Positions 590 through 9,068 of a stretch of 20,629 nt of DNA are shown piece by piece. The notes below the pieces were generated by a model. It was not told where the DNA came from and made no database searches. It worked only from the letters and a program-made list of their open reading frames with translations. The DNA comes from a virus. Numbering within the stretch: position 1 is the stretch's first letter; every line of letters starts with the position of its first letter. The DNA lies in the IMG/VR virus record IMGVR_UViG_3300031227_000540, positions 1-20,629 of that record; one strand, given 5' to 3'. The position numbers were made by a program, and so were the translations under genes.

Positions 590-2433
590 CCGATACCGAA
601 TACCTCCGCGAGACGTTCGACGGGATTGTGCAGACACCGTTCCAGGGCGATATTATGGAGTGGTCGGATGGGAAATTGAAAATCCCGTATTCAGTTCGGT
701 ATCCGATTTACATTGCAAGCGAATCGCCTTGGCTGATTGAGACGCTTAGAGCGTTATCAGATCCAAAGATTCGGCGCGTCGATGTGAGGATGCCAGCGGG
801 AGCAGCGAAGTCGCTTATCGGGGAGATCCAGATTGCCCATTGCCTAGCGGAAGATCCGGGATTGTATTACTACGTATGGCAAACGGATGATGACGCAAAA
901 GACGCGATGGAGGATCGCATTTACCCGATGATCGAGGCGAACGAATTCCTCGCGAAACGGATGCCTGTTGATCGGAACAAGAAGCGTGGGATGAAGATCG
1001 CGGCCCCGCACATGAGCCTTTACGCGGTGGGGGCAAATCTTTCGGCGGCCCAGTCGAAGCGGGTGAAGTGGTTGACGATGGAGGAGCCGCACCTTTACGG
1101 ACCTGGGATGATGACGGCTTTCGAGAAGCGAGTTGAAGGGGTGAAAGATTACAAGATCCTGACCCTATCGACTGGCAGCGTTCTAGGCGATGAGTCGGAC
1201 GATTCTTTTAATGCAGGTTCATGCGACGTATGGCAAGTGCCGTGCCCTTATTGTAATCAGTTTCAAACGATGAGCGATCACAAGGATAGGCTTAGATCAA
1301 AAATTGATAAGGATACCTGCGACGAGAACGGGGATTACAACTGGTCTAAAATCCTGCCCACCGTCCGATATAATTGCGAGCATTGCGGAATGGACTGGCC
1401 GACCGATGAGGCTTCAAGAAAAGATCAATCGCAACTAGGCAGATACATCTCTACGAATCCGAACGCGCCAGAAGATCACAGATCGTTCCACATGGAGGCG
1501 GTATCAGTGCATTATTTCCCATTGCCAAAGCTATTGATGGAGAAGATCCGCGCAAGTTACGCGGCAAAGCGTGGAGCAATGGAGCCCCTGAAGGACTACA
1601 TTCAGAAACGGAGGGCGATGGCTTGGGATGAATCTCCTATCGACTCCGACCAAGACGCGGCCTTTGATCGGTCGAAAGGCAACTATCACAAGCGGGAGGA
1701 TTTTGAGGGAGAGAAAACGCGGTTTATCTGTATCGACAACCAAGCGGGGAAGGCGTCTCGGGGAGAGGGAGCGCATCGTTGGTATGTGTGTCGCGCGTTC
1801 GGCGCGGACGAGTGCCGCCTGATCGATGAGGGCAAGATCACGTCGTGGGAGGAGATGGAGGAGAAGCGGATTGAGTTGGGGGTTGAGACGGGTCGGACGC
1901 TGGTGGACATCGCGTTTGACACGGCGGCGGTGCAGGCTGTGTGCGTTCGCTACGGGTGGATGGGCCTTTGGGGCGACATGACGAACAAGCGTTCGTTCCC
2001 GCATCATGAGCCGGTGACGGTGAACGGGAAGCCCGATAGGCTCACGCGGAACTATCCGTTCTCTCCGTCGAACATCGGGCATGTGGGGATCGGGAAAGAA
2101 GGGATTCGGCGGCAGGCTCGTTACTTTTTTTGGTGTCAGAATCCTATCAAGGACATGTATCATCGGCTCCGGCTGGGGATGAGTACTTACCGATGGACGG
2201 TTCCGCAGGACGTCTCGGAGGATTACCGAAAGCAGACGCAAGCGGAATACAAGACGATCACCATCGAGAAGAAGACGGGGCGGAAGGTGCGGGCGTATAA
2301 ATCCAAGGGGGACAACCACCTTGGGGACTGCGACCAGATGTGTCTGGTGTCAGCGATCATGGACCCGAATCTGAGGGCGTTGCTGTGGGGTGCGGAGGAC
2401 GAGAAAGAGGATGAGGAGGAAAAAAAGGGTTGA
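586..2433 (+). CDS. terL: Terminase large subunit, GpA family
   Basis: A 615-residue packaging ATPase/nuclease that cuts concatemeric DNA and drives it through the portal. Residues about 65-80 (VDVRMPAGAAKSLIGE) form a deviant Walker A (PAGAAKS), as in lambda gpA-type terminases, where the P-loop is non-canonical. Residues 160-168 (VKWLTMEEP) fit a Walker B with an acidic pair. Two CxxC pairs, CPYC at 220-223 and CEHC at 264-267, give the zinc-ribbon-like insert typical of the GpA family. RNase H-like nuclease acidic residues are plausible at D384 (ICIDNQ), D445 (IAFDTAA) and in the GDNHLGDCDQ segment (576-583). The length is close to lambda gpA (641). A GpA enzyme suggests cos-type cohesive-end packaging. 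Translation is coupled to the preceding gene by ATGA. Confidence 0.93.
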   Translation: MTDTEYLRETFDGIVQTPFQGDIMEWSDGKLKIPYSVRYPIYIASESPWLIETLRALSDPKIRRVDVRMPAGAAKSLIGEIQIAHCLAEDPGLYYYVWQTDDDAKDAMEDRIYPMIEANEFLAKRMPVDRNKKRGMKIAAPHMSLYAVGANLSAAQSKRVKWLTMEEPHLYGPGMMTAFEKRVEGVKDYKILTLSTGSVLGDESDDSFNAGSCDVWQVPCPYCNQFQTMSDHKDRLRSKIDKDTCDENGDYNWSKILPTVRYNCEHCGMDWPTDEASRKDQSQLGRYISTNPNAPEDHRSFHMEAVSVHYFPLPKLLMEKIRASYAAKRGAMEPLKDYIQKRRAMAWDESPIDSDQDAAFDRSKGNYHKREDFEGEKTRFICIDNQAGKASRGEGAHRWYVCRAFGADECRLIDEGKITSWEEMEEKRIELGVETGRTLVDIAFDTAAVQAVCVRYGWMGLWGDMTNKRSFPHHEPVTVNGKPDRLTRNYPFSPSNIGHVGIGKEGIRRQARYFFWCQNPIKDMYHRLRLGMSTYRWTVPQDVSEDYRKQTQAEYKTITIEKKTGRKVRAYKSKGDNHLGDCDQMCLVSAIMDPNLRALLWGAEDEKEDEEEKKG

Positions 2434-2466
2434 CTGGCGTAGGCGGTTAGGGTATCAACGGGACAG

Positions 2467-2622
2467 ATGATTTGTCCGCACTGCAATAAGTCCCTGCCCG
2501 ATTCGACGATTGCCAAGCATTTGGCAGCGAAGGGGGGGAGGAAGAGCAGGCGGAAGATCACGCCGGAGCAGCAAGCAATGATGCAGGCGGCGAAGGCAAA
2601 GAAGAAAAACAACACTAAATAA
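2467..2622 (+). CDS. Small CxxC (zinc-ribbon-like) protein
   Basis: A 51-residue ORF starting MICPHCNKSLPDSTIAKHL and ending in a Lys-rich tail (AAKAKKKNNTK). The N-terminal CPHC pair could hold half of a metal site, so a dimer or partner would be needed for a full zinc centre. The GGRKSRRKITPEQQ middle is strongly basic and suggests nucleic-acid contact. Very short proteins with this ICPHC...AKHLA..GG.KSRR plan are common among phage hypotheticals, in my recollection; function is unknown. It sits 33 bp after the terminase and 5 bp before the next gene, consistent with the same transcript. Confidence 0.65.
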   Translation: MICPHCNKSLPDSTIAKHLAAKGGRKSRRKITPEQQAMMQAAKAKKKNNTK

Positions 2623-2627
2623 AAAAT

Positions 2628-3188
2628 ATGAAAATTGCAACATGTAACCTGACATCACACGCGCCACTCCTGCAAAGCCGGATGCACGCGACGGACAAGC
2701 TCGACCGGGAGACCGCTCAGGATTATGAGGAGCGCGTTTGGAAAAACAAGGCGCACATCGACAATGACGGGAATGTTTTCATCCCCGGCGTGGCGTTCAA
2801 AAAGGCGATGCAAGACGCGGCGAAGTTCCTCAACATCCAGATTCCCGGAAAGGGGAAATCGACCTACACCAAGCATTTCAAGTCTGGGGTGATGGTGTTT
2901 TCCAACGTGGAGACCGGGAACAAGGAGAGCGACATCCTCAAGCGTCCGATCAACTGCAACTCGGATGGGGTTGCGGGTTCTGGCAAGCGGGTTCTGCGGT
3001 TTTTCCCGGAACTCACCTCATGGGAGGGGACGCTGATCGTGCATGTCCTGGACGACACGGTGACAAAAGACATCTTGGAGCAGGTTCTCGTGGCCGCTGG
3101 ACAGTTCATGGGGGTTGGGGCGTTCCGTCCGCAGAACGGGAATGGCTCCGGGATCTTCGCGGTTGAGGACATCGAGTGGGATAGCTGA
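2628..3188 (+). CDS. Hypothetical protein with RAMP-like (ferredoxin-fold) pattern
   Basis: A 186-residue protein with no named phage function. Visible features: an opening hydrophobic strand followed by APLLQSRMHA; a FIPGVAFKKAMQDAAKFL segment at about 51-68; a GKGKSTYTKHFKSGVMVF basic loop and strand; and a C-terminal VAAGQFMGVGAFRP...GSGIFAVEDIEW block (about 155-184). A central IPxxxxxxALxxAA helix plus a terminal G-x-G-x-F-R-P...G-x-F strand recalls a widespread family of roughly 180-residue phage proteins, and the layout resembles RAMP/Cas7-type ferredoxin folds. That fold link is my inference. The A-rich leader (AACACTAAATAAAAAAT) lacks a Shine-Dalgarno sequence. The stop codon is the first base triplet of repeat array 1. 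Confidence 0.8.
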   Translation: MKIATCNLTSHAPLLQSRMHATDKLDRETAQDYEERVWKNKAHIDNDGNVFIPGVAFKKAMQDAAKFLNIQIPGKGKSTYTKHFKSGVMVFSNVETGNKESDILKRPINCNSDGVAGSGKRVLRFFPELTSWEGTLIVHVLDDTVTKDILEQVLVAAGQFMGVGAFRPQNGNGSGIFAVEDIEWDS

Positions 3189-3400
3189 TTTTCCACCACA
3201 ACACTGCACAGCACGGCACCCCACAACACAACACGACACGACAACCGCTTTTCCGGCACCACACCGCACTGCACTGCACGTCACCCCACAACACAACACG
3301 ACACGACAACCGCTTTTCCGCCACGCCACGCCACTTCACCCCACAACACGCCACGCCACGCCACGCCACAACCCGACCCGACACGACAACCCTTCTACCA
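3186..3400 (+). repeat. Repeat array 1: 20-bp core with NCACN-pentamer spacers
   Basis: Intergenic array filling the gap between the 2628-3188 stop codon and the leader of the next gene. Exact 20-bp cores ACACGACAACCGCTTTTCCG start at 3236 and 3301, 65 bp apart. A degenerate unit edge (TGATT TTCCA, overlapping the stop codon) is at 3186 and a degenerate last core at 3381-3400. Unit edges fall at 3186, 3246, 3311 and 3391, giving steps of 60, 65 and 80 bp. Between cores every pentamer reads NCACN (for example GCACT GCACT GCACG TCACC CCACA). The plus strand is C/A-rich and G/T-poor with no stop codons, so spurious ORFs cross it. Function unknown. Confidence 0.95.
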
Positions 3401-3408
3401 AAAAAAAT

Positions 3409-3897
3409 ATGAACACAGATACCAAGCCAATCGCAACAATCGGCCTCGACGCCCAACTCATCCGCAAGCGGATCGAGTCAATGGAGGTAGGCGAAATCGT
3501 CTCCTATTCCGATCTTGAGGAAATCACCAAGCGTCCCCTGAACGAACTCCGGGGAAGTTTCTACACCGCCGCCCGGCAGGTCTTCCGGGAGTTCGGCTGG
3601 ACGTTCGGACCAGTCAAGGGAGTCGGATACAAGCGCCTCGACGCCGCCGAAAAGCTCGATACCGTCGAAGGCAAGCGAAAGCACATCCACAAGACGGCGC
3701 GTCGGGCGGGAGCCGTGTTGGCTTCGATCAAGGTCTCGGAACTGCCGCAAGAGCAGCAGGTGAGGCACAATCTTGAGGTGTCATTCGCGGGAGCGATTGC
3801 GCTGGCCACCGGGAAGAAAGCCACGCGGTTGATTGCCGAAAAGGCGGCATCGGCTCCACTCCCCGGCATCGAAGTTCTCTCGCTTTTCGCCAAGTAG
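3409..3897 (+). CDS. Putative winged-helix-like DNA-binding protein
   Basis: A 162-residue protein starting MNTDTKPIATIGLDAQ. The frame stays open upstream through the repeats, but ATG 3409 follows an A-rich leader (CTACCAAAAAAAAT) like other starts here and excludes the repeat-encoded residues. Residues about 25-80 (VGEIVSYSDLEEITKRPLNE, then a helix, then FGWTFGPVKGVGYKRL) look like a winged helix: helix, turn, recognition helix, beta wing. The second part has HKTARRAGAVLASIKV and RHNLEVSFAGAIALATG, a combination I recall from unannotated phage proteins of similar size. A regulator or DNA-binding accessory protein is likely but unproven. The gene is bracketed by the two arrays and its last codons (CTTTTCGCCAAG TAG) echo the array edge CTTTTCCGCCAC that follows. 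Confidence 0.75.
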   Translation: MNTDTKPIATIGLDAQLIRKRIESMEVGEIVSYSDLEEITKRPLNELRGSFYTAARQVFREFGWTFGPVKGVGYKRLDAAEKLDTVEGKRKHIHKTARRAGAVLASIKVSELPQEQQVRHNLEVSFAGAIALATGKKATRLIAEKAASAPLPGIEVLSLFAK

Positions 3898-4500
3898 CTT
3901 TTCCGCCACTGCACTGCACCCCACTTCACTTCACTTCACAACCCGACACGACCCGACACGACAACCGCTTTTCCGTCACAACACATCACAGCACACCACA
4001 CAACACCACACCACAACCCGACCCGACACGACAACCGCTTTTCCGGCACCGCACGGCACAGCACATCACCCCACATCACAACCCGACACGACAACCGCTT
4101 TTCCGACACATCACGGCACTCCACCACACTGCACTACACCTCACGCCACGACCCGACCCGACACGACAACCGCTTTTCCGTCACAACACATCACAGCACT
4201 TCACATCACCTCACTACCCGACCCGACACGACAACCGCTTTTCCGCCACGCCACAGCACTTCACATCACCTCACTACCCGACCCGACACGACAACCGCTT
4301 TTCCGACACCCCACTGCACTTCACACCACTTCACCCCACAACACAACCCGACACGACAACCGCTTTTCCGGCACCTCACCGCACTGCACCGCACGTCACC
4401 CCACAACACAACCCGACACGACAACCGCTTTTCCGCCACGTCACTGCACTGCACCCCACTTCACTTCACTTCACAACCCGACCCGACACGACACGCCCCC
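3896..4500 (+). repeat. Repeat array 2: nine units, pentamer-phased
   Basis: This 605-bp gene-free stretch lies between the convergent 3' ends of the 3409-3897 gene and the minus-strand gene. Exact cores ACACGACAACCGCTTTTCCG start at 3956, 4026, 4086, 4161, 4226, 4286, 4351 and 4416, and a degenerate end is near 4486-4500. Unit steps from 3896 are 70, 70, 60, 75, 65, 60, 65, 65 and 70 bp, all multiples of 5. Spacer pentamers are NCACN with a single exception that I can see (CAACA at 4001-4005), followed by ACCCG/ACACG pentamers before each core. Positions 4192-4245 and 4252-4305 are identical (54 bp). The unit at 4370-4440 matches array 1 positions 3255-3325 at 68 of 71 bases. Confidence 0.95.
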
Positions 4501-4508
4501 CCGAGCCG

Positions 4509-5513
4509 TTAATAAATCACCCTTGCGTCAACCACCGAATCCGCCGAGTTCGTGTTCTCGGTGACGATGAAGCGCAGGAACTCGGTCGGCAGGGTGAACA
4601 GCGCGAACGTGGTTGTCCCCGCCCCTAGCGTCAACTCCCCCTCCTCCGTGTCGAGCCAGTTGACTTGATCCGTCGCGGTCTGGAACTTGACCTTGATCGC
4701 CAGCTCGTTGTAGATGCGGTAGGCGGCGATCCTCCCGCCGACTGCGACCGTTACCGACGTTGCCAGAAGCTTTCCTGGGAGCGTGTCGGTTAGGTGATCC
4801 TCGCTGGCAAACGTGATCGAGTTTTCCGTCGTGGCCACGGTGGGGGAAAGCGAAAAGAGCAACGTCCCGTCCACCCCGCCCATCGCAATCCGCTTTGCGA
4901 AGTTGGCAGCCGACTCGGTCATGACGGCCGCGAGTTGGCGCAGGCACGGGACGCGGTCGGTTAGGGTGACGACGGTGGTGTCCACGGTGGCGGAATAGAT
5001 CGGATGCGCGAGAGTTATGGCGAAATAGTCTGTCCCTGGAGTCCCGTCGGCATTGATGGCCCGCTTGAGTGCCAGCATGGTGTCGGTGGCCGAGGCCCCG
5101 ATTTGGACATCGTAGGCGGCGGCCATCGTGGTTTTGAATCGGTAGGTCCGCTTAAAGTTTGCGTCATCGATGCCCACTACCAGCGTGTCTCCGTCTGAGG
5201 GATTGGAAATCGCCGCAACGTCACCAATGGCGGCGGTCCCCTCCGAATAGCATCGGATGTTCCCGCTGGGCGTTCCGCTGGCCGCGCCACGGGTGATGGC
5301 GGTAAATTCGCTGGTGGAAATCTTCTCGGCCAGCCCGTATCCTGTCAAATTGGCGGAAATCGTCTCAACCCCAGGAGCGTCGCTGATGGTCCCGTAAACC
5401 TTGAGCGAGGTCACTTCGGTGGCCAAATCCTGCCGAACAACGATTAGGGTGGCGGCTGCGGGCTGGGTGGTGATGGGGTTGGCCCCTGACGTTCGGAAGG
5501 CGGAGGAGGACAT
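4509..5513 (-). CDS. Putative virion structural protein on the opposite strand
   Basis: A 334-residue protein (ATG at 5513; a GTG five codons upstream at 5528 is an alternative). It is the only convincing minus-strand gene in the window. It is rich in Ala, Thr, Val and beta strands, without signal peptide or membrane segment. The DGDTLVVGIDDANFKRTYRF segment followed by an IGASATDTMLALKRAINADG helix resembles a domain common in phage tail/baseplate proteins (gDtvtig..tYtFkt...IGa....tl.nLiaAIN). The C-terminal part (VKFQTATDQVNW, then FALFTLPTEFLRFIVTENTN) is also strand-rich. A tail fibre or decoration-type protein is plausible. It converges on array 2 and diverges from the head operon, so it must have its own promoter near 5514-5601. 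Confidence 0.8.
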   Translation of the reverse strand: MSSSAFRTSGANPITTQPAAATLIVVRQDLATEVTSLKVYGTISDAPGVETISANLTGYGLAEKISTSEFTAITRGAASGTPSGNIRCYSEGTAAIGDVAAISNPSDGDTLVVGIDDANFKRTYRFKTTMAAAYDVQIGASATDTMLALKRAINADGTPGTDYFAITLAHPIYSATVDTTVVTLTDRVPCLRQLAAVMTESAANFAKRIAMGGVDGTLLFSLSPTVATTENSITFASEDHLTDTLPGKLLATSVTVAVGGRIAAYRIYNELAIKVKFQTATDQVNWLDTEEGELTLGAGTTTFALFTLPTEFLRFIVTENTNSADSVVDARVIY

Positions 5514-5601
5514 TTCGAGACAATCCACTACCCCAAATAATTCGCAAATGCAACAATTTTGCGGTTGCTAATCCTTAGTAAGTTGATAAGGGTAGTCAAC
5601 A
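5514..5601. promoter_or_regulatory. Divergent intergenic region, candidate promoter/operator
   Basis: This 88-bp gap separates the minus-strand gene from the head operon and is AT-richer than its surroundings. An interrupted palindrome GTTGA-N9-TCAAC lies at 5582-5600, immediately before the ATG at 5602. On the minus strand TTGACT (5600-5595) followed after 17 bp by AAGGAT is a poor sigma-70-like pair, three of six at -10. AAGGG at 5588-5592, 9 bp before ATG 5602, is a usable Shine-Dalgarno. Promoter assignment is weak; the need for divergent transcription is the better argument. Confidence 0.3.
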
Positions 5602-5865
5602 ATGGCAGTCAAGCAGACCTTGGTTGGGCTGGATGCAGCTGATTTAGAGGCGATTAGAGACGCCTGCAAGGGTTGCATCATCGCCCAGACAGTCCGAGGG
5701 GTGTCATACACCATCGCGGGGAGAAGCTTCTCTTTCCCCTCCTTGGAGTCTGCGGCCAACATGCTCCAAGAGGCAAATTACGCCCTTGGACTGCTTTCTG
5801 GGACCTTCGCCCAGGTGGTCAGGGCCAACTTCAATCCCGGCATGGGTAGGGGGAGGCGCGGATGA
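5602..5865 (+). CDS. Head-tail joining protein, GpW-like
   Basis: An 87-residue protein placed immediately before the portal gene and overlapping it by 4 bp (ATGA at 5862). Lambda gpW (68 residues), lying between terminase and portal genes, plugs the head and lets the tail attach. The sequence has an N-terminal helix (LDAADLEAIRDACKGCIIAQ), a two-strand segment (VSYTIAGRSFSFPS) and a second helix (LESAANMLQEANYALGLL), which matches the alpha-beta-beta-alpha plan of the gpW fold. A Gly/Arg tail (GMGRGRRG) follows. Preceded by AAGGG at a 9-bp spacing. Assignment is by position and secondary-structure pattern. Confidence 0.7.
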   Translation: MAVKQTLVGLDAADLEAIRDACKGCIIAQTVRGVSYTIAGRSFSFPSLESAANMLQEANYALGLLSGTFAQVVRANFNPGMGRGRRG

Positions 5866-8800
5866 AAGAGTTCCGCCCAAACCTCCTAGACCGCGCCGTC
5901 TCGGCCATCGCCCCCGCAGCAGGGATGCGTCGGATGGCGGCGCGGCAAGCTCTCCACCTGCTCAGTTACGACGGGGCGCGGCAATCCACAAAGCGATCCT
6001 CCGCCCCCCAAAACATCTCCCCGAACAGCTTCGATGTCCAGCGGGACCGATTGCAGCTCATGCGGGAGGCCGAAGACCTAGAGCGGAACTTTGCCCCAGC
6101 AAAGCACCTCAACCGGAAATATGCGCTCTATACCTCCCCGATCAGCTACCATGCGGCAACGGGTGACAGCGGGCTAGACAAGGAAGTTGAGGCGTATCTG
6201 AACGATGAGGTTTTTCCGAATTGCGATGTCACCGGCCGCTTCGATTTCTTCAAAATGATGGAGTTCGGGGTGATGGGGTGCAATCGGGGAGGAGATTACG
6301 GATGGGCGTTTCTCCGCCCCGAGTTGGAAGAGGGGATGAGCGAGGAGGAGGCGTTGCAGCTCGACCTAAAGATTCAGGCGGTTGAGCCGGATCGTATCGG
6401 CGGGATCTATCAGAACGTAGTTTCCAACGACTATGTTTCTGGATGTATCATCGGGGCCTATGGAGGGATTGACGCCTTCCGCGTGTTCCATCGGAGCATG
6501 ACGACGAGCGTTTACGACAATCCCGTGGACATCCCGGCTGACCAGTTCGTGCATTTGGTTGACCCGATGCGGATCGACATGTATCGGGGTGTTTCTGTCC
6601 TCTCGACCGCCGTCCAGAATCTGCGGGACATCTACGAGATGGTGGACTCTGTTAAGGGCAAGGCGAAGTTGGCAAGTGCTCTAACAGTATTTACAAACTC
6701 CAACGGGGCCACGGTGGGAAGCGGGGCATTCGACCCCTACGGGACGACGGTTGACCAGTCTGGTGGATCGTCAGCATTGCAGCAGGACATCGCATTTGGG
6801 CAAATCAACCACCTTGCGGCGGGTGCGGACATCAAGTTTCCAACCAGCAATTCCCCTTCTTCCGAGGAGCAGGCGCTGATTACCCTGCTCCTGAAGTTTG
6901 TGGCGATGAGCTACGGGCTCCCCTACTCTTTCGCGCTGGACGCATCAACCCTTGGCGGCGTCAGCAGTCGCCTAGAGTCCGAGATGGCCAAGGCTGAATT
7001 TGAGCGCGGCCAGCGCGTCCTTTCGCCGCACGCCCATCGGATTAAGAACACGTTCCTGATTGACGCCATCGCCAAGGGGGTTTTCCCCATCGAGGTGTTG
7101 GGACAGATCACGAAGGGGCGTTGGGGATACAGACCGCATCCTCAACCCGACATCGGCAAGGAAGCGTCAGCGGCCGTCAATCTCTACCAGAGCGGCCTTC
7201 TCGACCCGATGAAGCATTGGGTGGACAACGCGCAAGACCCCGAGGCGGTGGCGGATGCGATGGCGCGTTGGGCGATCATCAAGCGCGACACGGCCAAGCG
7301 GCATGGCCTTGACGAGCAGGCTGTATTCGGGGCAGGTCCAGCGAAGCCTCTATCCCAGACGGAGAGCGCCACCGAGAGCACGACCATTGACGCTGCCAAA
7401 AAGGAGCTTTCCCGCCACGAATTCGCCAAGGAATCAACCGAATCGATGCGGCAGCGCGTGGCCGACAAAGAGAAGGCGGGCAAAGACGTTGCATCCGAGA
7501 AGGAGGCATTGATTGCGGACTTGCGATCAAAGGAATCCAGCGGGGCCGATGCAAAGGAAATCCAAGCGGGGAGGGTGGCAATTGACCGCATTAAAAGCGA
7601 TTTAGAAGACGCCTATGGGGAGCTTCGCAGGGCCAGGGCGATTCTGACGAAGCGGGAGACAGATGAAGGAGCAACCGACAAAGCAAAGACGCCGAATAAG
7701 GCGAATGCGAAGAATCGGGACGAGATCCACGCCTTTGTCGAGGCGCTGAAAGGGCAAGGATACCCAGAGCAGGAAGCCTACGCCATCGCCTACGACATCG
7801 TGGACAGCGGCAAATTTTCATGGAGCAAGCTACCTGCCAACATTCAGGCGAAATACAATCTGGAGCGGAAGGAATTCAAATCCAACCCGATCTTCAACGA
7901 AGAAGATCATTCTCGGGATGATGACGGCAAGTTCGGTCCAGGCGGAGGAGGCGGAGGAGGATCTAGCAGCAAGGACGATACTAAATCCAGAGCAGACTAC
8001 AGAAGCTCCAGAGCATCCGTAGGAAATATGAAGCAAGCTAAAGTTACAGGTGAAGGAGAGAACGCAACTCTAACGATGAGCGATGGGAGACCTCTGCCTG
8101 CTCATATAAAACCTTCGATGATACCCCCAGCGTATCGTCATGATATGCAAATCGCGACAGACAAGGATTCTGATGTTTGGGCAATCAGCCGAGACGAAAA
8201 AGGAAGCTCCAAGAGGGTATATAACCCTGCTTACTCGGAAAGGCAGAAAGAGACCAAATGGGCAAGAGTGAATAATGGAGTTGCTGAGTCACAAGCAATC
8301 CGCTCTAAGATACATAACGACATCAATCAGGGAGAGAACAAGGAAGAGGCGGCTGCGACATGGCTCATGTCAATGCAGGCGACTCGGCCCGGAAGTGAGA
8401 GTGACACCAAGGGGAGCAAGGCACTATGGGAAGTGCCGATCACAGCGGAGAACGTAACCATCATCCCCTCGAAAAACTCCAAGGATCTACCGAAAGTAGT
8501 TCTTCAGGTTGGAGACGATCAGATTCCGATCAGGGACGAAGCAGCAAGGAGGGAAATTCTATCCCGTGTCGAGTCTGGCAAAGAATTTAGGGACGCGGGA
8601 TATTGGATTAAATCCTACGGAGCAACAACGCTAGAGGGCAGGCACGTTATTCCAGACGGCGACGGGGTGAGGTTGCAGTTCATGGGCAAGGAGGGGGTTT
8701 GGCATGATCACAAGATTTCTGACCAGAACCTTGCGAAGAATCTGCTGGATCGGAAGCAGCAATCAGGAGACGGGGGTAAGCTGTTTAATACGGATTACGC

Positions 8801-9068
8801 CAAGGTTTCAAAATACACCAACTCGCTAGGGAGCGGAATCTACAGTGCTAAAGACCTCCGCACGATTCGCGCAAACGAGCTGGCATCGGACATCATCGGG
8901 TCATCGGCGCGAGAGTTTGACTCGGACGCTGACAGGAAAAGCTTCATCAAGGACGTGGCAATCAAGGTTTCGGGAGTCCTCGGAAATAAACCTCAACAAG
9001 CACTTGAATCGTATATCAATCCCGCCGTCTTCGACGCGCTGAAAGTATCTAACAAAAAAGCAGCATGA
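5862..9068 (+). CDS. Portal protein (GpB-like) fused to a C-terminal type IB DNA topoisomerase
   Basis: At 1068 residues this is about twice a lambda portal (533). Residues 1 to about 490 are portal: the DLERNF...HLNRKYALY segment, FHRSM...IPADQFVHLVDP, RGVSVLSTAV and SYGLPYSFALDASTLGGVSS are typical of the GpB family, whose ring forms the DNA entry channel. Residues about 500-610 are a charged coiled-coil-like helix. SRDDDGKFGPGG plus a run of seven glycines (about 684-700) is a linker. Residues about 723-1068 read as topoisomerase IB: IPPAY (754-758) with ISRDEKGSSKRVYNP, R842 in ATRPGS, YGATTLEGRHV (919-929), K943 in FMGKEG, R1000 in AKDLRTI, N1042 in LGNKP and nucleophile Y1051 in ESYINPAV. 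This matches the R-K-R-(H/N)-Y set. About 65 residues (850-918) look inserted between the first Arg and YGATTL. The topoisomerase part is lower in GC (two counted 60-bp lines give 43-45%, versus 62-65% in the portal part), which suggests separate acquisition. Confidence 0.9.
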   Translation: MKEFRPNLLDRAVSAIAPAAGMRRMAARQALHLLSYDGARQSTKRSSAPQNISPNSFDVQRDRLQLMREAEDLERNFAPAKHLNRKYALYTSPISYHAATGDSGLDKEVEAYLNDEVFPNCDVTGRFDFFKMMEFGVMGCNRGGDYGWAFLRPELEEGMSEEEALQLDLKIQAVEPDRIGGIYQNVVSNDYVSGCIIGAYGGIDAFRVFHRSMTTSVYDNPVDIPADQFVHLVDPMRIDMYRGVSVLSTAVQNLRDIYEMVDSVKGKAKLASALTVFTNSNGATVGSGAFDPYGTTVDQSGGSSALQQDIAFGQINHLAAGADIKFPTSNSPSSEEQALITLLLKFVAMSYGLPYSFALDASTLGGVSSRLESEMAKAEFERGQRVLSPHAHRIKNTFLIDAIAKGVFPIEVLGQITKGRWGYRPHPQPDIGKEASAAVNLYQSGLLDPMKHWVDNAQDPEAVADAMARWAIIKRDTAKRHGLDEQAVFGAGPAKPLSQTESATESTTIDAAKKELSRHEFAKESTESMRQRVADKEKAGKDVASEKEALIADLRSKESSGADAKEIQAGRVAIDRIKSDLEDAYGELRRARAILTKRETDEGATDKAKTPNKANAKNRDEIHAFVEALKGQGYPEQEAYAIAYDIVDSGKFSWSKLPANIQAKYNLERKEFKSNPIFNEEDHSRDDDGKFGPGGGGGGGSSSKDDTKSRADYRSSRASVGNMKQAKVTGEGENATLTMSDGRPLPAHIKPSMIPPAYRHDMQIATDKDSDVWAISRDEKGSSKRVYNPAYSERQKETKWARVNNGVAESQAIRSKIHNDINQGENKEEAAATWLMSMQATRPGSESDTKGSKALWEVPITAENVTIIPSKNSKDLPKVVLQVGDDQIPIRDEAARREILSRVESGKEFRDAGYWIKSYGATTLEGRHVIPDGDGVRLQFMGKEGVWHDHKISDQNLAKNLLDRKQQSGDGGKLFNTDYAKVSKYTNSLGSGIYSAKDLRTIRANELASDIIGSSAREFDSDADRKSFIKDVAIKVSGVLGNKPQQALESYINPAVFDALKVSNKKAA

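Follow-up and report, generated by a model that had tools for sequence, protein, structure and literature searches.

How should we read a stretch of viral DNA in which a fixed CAC triplet recurs every five bases, in runs that are separated by exact copies of one 20-nt sequence and that lie around two small genes? The window analysed here, the whole 20,629 nucleotides of IMG/VR record IMGVR_UViG_3300031227_000540, contains two blocks of such runs (Table 1). An original prediction, made from the letters alone, knew of no named element of this form. The form does, however, match that of the vrRNA arrays of VIPR systems, RNA-guided relatives of CRISPR that were reported in 2026 as a preprint (PMC13142463). 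We consider it very probable that the region is a phage VIPR locus and that its NCACN blocks are a guide-RNA (vrRNA) array of a CAC/NN type.

Table 1. Genes, putative vrRNA blocks, guides and linkers of the array region (positions in the window)
Feature	Position	Strand	Description
vipr	2628..3188	+	RAMP-fold protein, 186 aa, phrog_4652 (E 5e-13)
First putative vrRNA block	3189..3408	+	Between vipr and vap; CACNN runs, two exact linkers
Guides of first block, three	about 3196-3235, 3256-3300, 3321-3370	+	With linkers
Linker ACACGACAACCGCTTTTCCG, one of ten identical 20-nt copies	3236..3255	+	Exact matches
Other nine linker starts	3301, 3956, 4026, 4086, 4161, 4226, 4286, 4351, 4416	+	Exact matches
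vap	3409..3897	+	Winged-helix protein, 162 aa, phrog_5926
Second putative vrRNA block	3898..4500	+	3' of vap; CACNN runs, eight exact linkers
Guides of second block, nine	about 3906-3940, 3976-4015, 4046-4080, 4106-4150, 4181-4215, 4246-4275, 4306-4345, 4371-4410, 4436-4475	+	With linkers

The regularity of the arrays is far beyond chance. All ten copies of the 20-nt core that had been predicted were found at their predicted starts, where 100 dinucleotide shuffles give an expectation of 0. CACNN units in runs of at least five number 94, compared with a mean of 0.03 and a maximum of 5 in sequences generated by a second-order Markov model of that region, and the longest run elsewhere in the window, on either strand, is 2. 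The spacers between exact cores measure 40-55 bp rather than the 25-45 bp first given. They had been described as NCACN pentamers with the single exception CAACA; NCACN indeed accounts for 96 of the 114 pentamers, but 17 read ACCCG besides the one CAACA. Since the ACCCG pentamers adjoin the 20-nt core, they are probably part of the constant linker. Core-to-core steps (65, 655 across the gene, 70, 60, 75, 65, 60, 65 and 65) are all multiples of 5 in the window, as predicted from a longer list of steps that included truncated core copies. In all, there are about 12 guides in two blocks, each 7-11 pentamers long (a few more if linker pentamers are counted) and set apart by the constant linker. 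The final pairs are mostly AA or GA in guides of several triplet types; given that this holds whatever the triplet, the last NN pairs may be constant rather than derived from a target. The linker presumably forms the 3' tail or a processing signal of each vrRNA. It has no known structure: Rfam gave no match in 2400-5600 at E values up to 1. Promoter and terminator scans of the + strand found none. An assembly artefact, which the original prediction had named as a possible undoing of the pattern, is excluded by the recurrence of the same array in the separate IMG/VR contigs L018, L024 and L026 and, in part, L019 and L022. Elsewhere in the window, a short sequence at 58-101 is duplicated in tandem (CCCAAGCGATGAAAGAAAAC, 2.2 copies), directly before the first ORF.

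What do the two small genes encode? A profile of the first clearly matched one solved chain, PDB 36pp_D ('SUSP1 Vipr protein', E 3.7e-7), and in the SUSP1 genome it found the gene at 28474-29061 (E 1.1e-9). Its predicted structure (pLDDT 94.6) has as best structural matches type VII Cas7 and Csm3 subunits, at Z about 13. Judged by profile and structural model, the product is a RAMP-fold homologue of Vipr. The vap family profile found in SUSP1 the gene that adjoins vipr (vap1, 28031-28471, E 1.6e-7). The model of Vap (pLDDT 93.6) is similar over residues 4-84 to DNA-binding domains of the winged-helix type, with Z up to 8.2, so that Vap looks like a DNA-binding protein as far as the prediction goes. 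PADLOC matched neither Vipr nor Vap, and Pfam gave nothing above its cut-offs for either. The genes around the arrays include those for a large terminase, a portal and a major head protein. The closest isolate by large terminase is Verrucomicrobia phage P8625, at only 22% identity, which suggests a Verrucomicrobiota host. The portal gene (5862-9068, + strand, 1068 aa) also matches, near the C terminus of its product (residues 917-1044), the topoisomerase IB catalytic core (PF01028, E 1e-10); if real, such a fusion is unusual. On the - strand, an ORF of 339 aa (4509-5528), with no family match, ends directly behind the second array.

The preprint defines VIPR by Vipr, a vap gene and vrRNAs in which a fixed triplet alternates with a hypervariable NN (PMC13142463). 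By its account, reading of DNA by the NN pairs skips one base, and the targets are largely competing phages; the vrRNAs, of 9-16 repeats followed by an invariable 3' tail, are expressed and co-purify with Vipr; and the fixed triplet of characterised systems is GGY, with 'a related consensus' also allowed (PMC13142463). Both proteins and the array anatomy of the window fit this definition; GGY itself is not what we find, but a related consensus is allowed, and CAC may fall within it. SUSP1 (KT454805), our positive control, shows runs of GGY/NN in front of vipr and behind vap, all on one and the same strand. The window resembles it in pairing a Vipr homologue with an adjoining vap homologue, and in carrying arrays on the sense strand, located 5' of, between or 3' of the genes, in which each fixed triplet is joined to a hypervariable pair of bases. 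It differs in having CAC where SUSP1 has GGY, a compact 20-nt linker rather than the structured tails of about 100-nt RNAs, about twelve guides rather than four vrRNAs, and a Vipr on a separate long branch; its 7-11 pentamers also contrast with the 9-16 repeats of the published vrRNAs (PMC13142463). We infer that CAC stands in for GGY because the Vipr lineage of the window reads a different triplet. The RAMP fold seen in type VII Cas7 and Csm3, together with an RNA of constant and variable parts, is reminiscent of class 1 CRISPR-Cas as well. Unlike those systems, the region has no CRISPR repeats and no contiguous unique spacers, the spacers being runs of fixed-CAC pentamers; the array region contains only two small genes, and the variable positions recur every five bases. 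In this respect the original prediction was right to set the arrays apart from CRISPR.

Are such arrays tied to vipr and vap in other viruses? We scanned a viral collection at the DNA level for eight in-phase CACNN units, using no protein, and obtained 114 stretches. Those with varied dinucleotides mostly encode Vipr (47 loci) and/or Vap (44 loci), for a total of 52 loci; the DNA pattern CACNN alone suffices to find such systems without a protein search. Around vipr and vap in these 52 loci, 2,050 CACNN units are in the sense orientation of the genes and 13 in antisense, and there are no runs of four or more units farther from the two genes. Gene order is variable, with vap preceding vipr in L032, L079 and L131, and many loci have arrays also 3' of the last gene. 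In L070, L093 and L097, vap lies elsewhere on the other strand and the arrays stay around vipr. Linker architecture varies widely within CAC-type loci, as indicated by L082 (1350-1800, reverse strand of the locus), where the constant linker (CACCGGTATTGAGCTTATGAGATTTATCGCC...) is much longer than that of the window. Among phage isolates the array had no DNA match. In bacterial genomes, CACNN runs gave at least 119 stretches, with a varied array in none among the matches listed, and carrier hosts were not found this way.

Comparison of close relatives indicates which parts of the locus change. L027 represents another strain of the window phage, with 542 of 561 bases identical in vipr, 479 of 489 in vap and 2539 of 2627 upstream. 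Its genes are about 97% identical to those of the window and the last 17 nt of the linker are the same, but the guides and their variable pairs differ. Array length, which the original prediction had proposed to compare among strains, differs too: the first array spans about 304 bp in L027 versus 220 in the window. Compact multi-guide arrays therefore change between near-identical strains. One could ask whether such arrays are merely a microsatellite of pentamers that has no function and grew through slippage and recombination. The window does contain near-copy guides (3256/4371, 3906/4436 and the 3' parts of 4181/4246), and guide 4436 is guide 3906 with one inserted pentamer, bearing out the claim that length changes within guides come in whole pentamers. 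Yet of the 16 dinucleotides possible between one CAC and the next, 15 are used, as expected if the outer bases vary while CAC stays; the linkers are exact; and across the 52 loci the arrays occur only around vipr and vap, always on one strand. We give a microsatellite next to no probability. Plain slippage of a 5-bp unit, one of the origins first proposed, likewise fails to account for the range of dinucleotides or for a near-identical strain with different words.

The other origin proposed was a reader with a half-helical-turn register. In its DNA-level form, a protein such as Vap would bind one CAC per half turn of double-stranded DNA, as at iterons or partition sites. The resemblance of Vap to DNA-binding proteins would suit such a role, as would core-to-core steps that are all multiples of five within the window. 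In relatives, however, the rule of five breaks down. The linkers of L054, L058 and L063 shift the pentamer phase by one base; that of L054 is one base shorter, and successive runs there begin at intervals of 69, 59 and 69 bases. Over the unique junctions of relatives, the phase offset modulo 5 is 0 in 40, 4 in 25 and 1-3 in 10, hence nonzero in 35 of 75. Shifts not divisible by five, which had been anticipated as evidence against the register, thus confine it: the pentamer phase holds within a guide and fails across linkers and along the DNA, a result that speaks against a half-turn reader of DNA. Also at odds with DNA-level sites are the strict sense-strand bias, the arrays that flank vipr even where vap lies elsewhere on the other strand, and a triplet that differs between phages and follows a tree built from Vipr alone. 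We regard binding sites of this kind as extremely unlikely.

If the variable pairs of a VIPR array encode targets, can these be found? Searches of 206 and 234 guides against the analysed loci, with skips of 0-4, gave only weak best matches whichever skip was used, with a slight excess at skip 1. Against the collection, window guide 4106 gave 0 hits, the long L027 guide 32 hits with at most 2 of 6 further pairs matching, and an L040 guide 7 hits with at most 2 of 7; the latter two results are chance-like. The phage is uncultured, and the right target may simply be absent from the collection. Codon-phase coherence, a target-free composition test of the one-base skip, was null for CAC guides (z -0.2) and gave z 3.4 for 38 GGC guides.

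Target searches without a convincing match are also what would be seen if the arrays were protein-binding sites in the vipr/vap mRNA, with the RAMP protein coating its own message at CAC and autoregulating, the NN pairs neutral and no targeting involved. The sense-strand arrays between and behind both genes are compatible with this. The sites of TRAP, the trp RNA-binding attenuation protein, similarly consist of fixed RNA triplets two bases apart; TRAP has another protein fold than Vipr, and its spacer bases carry no information. Counter to autoregulation, many loci have arrays 3' of the last gene, the guides are discrete units with identical linkers, entire guide sets are replaced between strains, and the preprint describes NN pairs that serve as guides in homologous systems (PMC13142463). 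Overall, we find mRNA autoregulation very unlikely.

Is the CAC triplet peculiar to this lineage? A search by Vipr protein, independent of arrays, identified 345 relatives, of which 80 were kept. By simple count, CACNN arrays occur in only 12 of 78 Vipr relatives; most others have period-5 arrays of a triplet plus NN with GGC, CGC or GAC, rarely GTC or CTC. Arrays are absent or degenerate in 15 of the enlarged set of relatives, and degenerate or rare triplets (RRY-like, GTY, CTC) lie beside the Vipr genes of L274, L318 and L323. Mapped on a tree of 88 Vipr proteins, the triplets cluster, with 28 changes versus 49.6 when shuffled (none of 200 shuffles was as low), and yet they have switched repeatedly, CAC alone requiring at least five forced changes. 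The window Vipr belongs to a large clade that a long supported branch separates from SUSP1, LESphi2 and Gordonia phage ODay. Within the protein, N/H/S/D versus P at position 111 tracks C versus G as the first base of the triplet in 97% of rows, and R165 is present in all 35 rows in which the second base is G. These associations, to which L277, L291 and L323 are exceptions, are contradicted never or almost never in independent pairs. The alignment is thus suggestive of position 111 and R165 as candidate triplet-reading residues of Vipr, an association that is unproven given only 3-4 supported independent pairs.

Looking across the analysis, the VIPR reading is based on two proteins homologous to those of a characterised VIPR locus, the RAMP fold, the repeat anatomy, the tie of the arrays to the vipr and vap genes and their sense strand, and two bases that are hypervariable between strains. 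Arguing against it are CAC in place of GGY, the short linker, the somewhat short guides, and the null results of the target search and of the codon-phase test on CAC guides. By analogy with the VIPR members described in the preprint, both NCACN blocks would be transcribed on the + strand and would yield short vrRNAs of about 7-11 pentamers, each CAC plus two variable bases, followed by the constant linker. The RAMP-fold Vipr would line up along this RNA, presumably with one subunit to each pentamer, and would hold CAC while leaving the two variable bases exposed. The exposed pairs would jointly match a DNA target, skipping one base from each pair to the next, so that the two variable bases of each repeat should encode which DNA is recognised. 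Such binding would lead to repression of genes belonging to a rival phage, satellite or prophage, a step in which the winged-helix Vap probably assists.

VIPR was characterised with GGY/NN guides. In the window locus and its relatives the fixed triplet differs between phages and has been switched repeatedly. Whether the triplet serves as a recognition signal specific to each lineage, changed in concert by Vipr proteins and arrays, seems to us evenly balanced. Given that CAC, CGC, GAC, GGC, GTC and CTC arrays occur within one Vipr family, with the forced changes noted for CAC, the RNA-guided systems of phages that differ in triplet may be orthogonal to one another. With this repeated switching it becomes testable which residues of Vipr recognise the triplet, and whether two systems that differ in it are orthogonal to each other.
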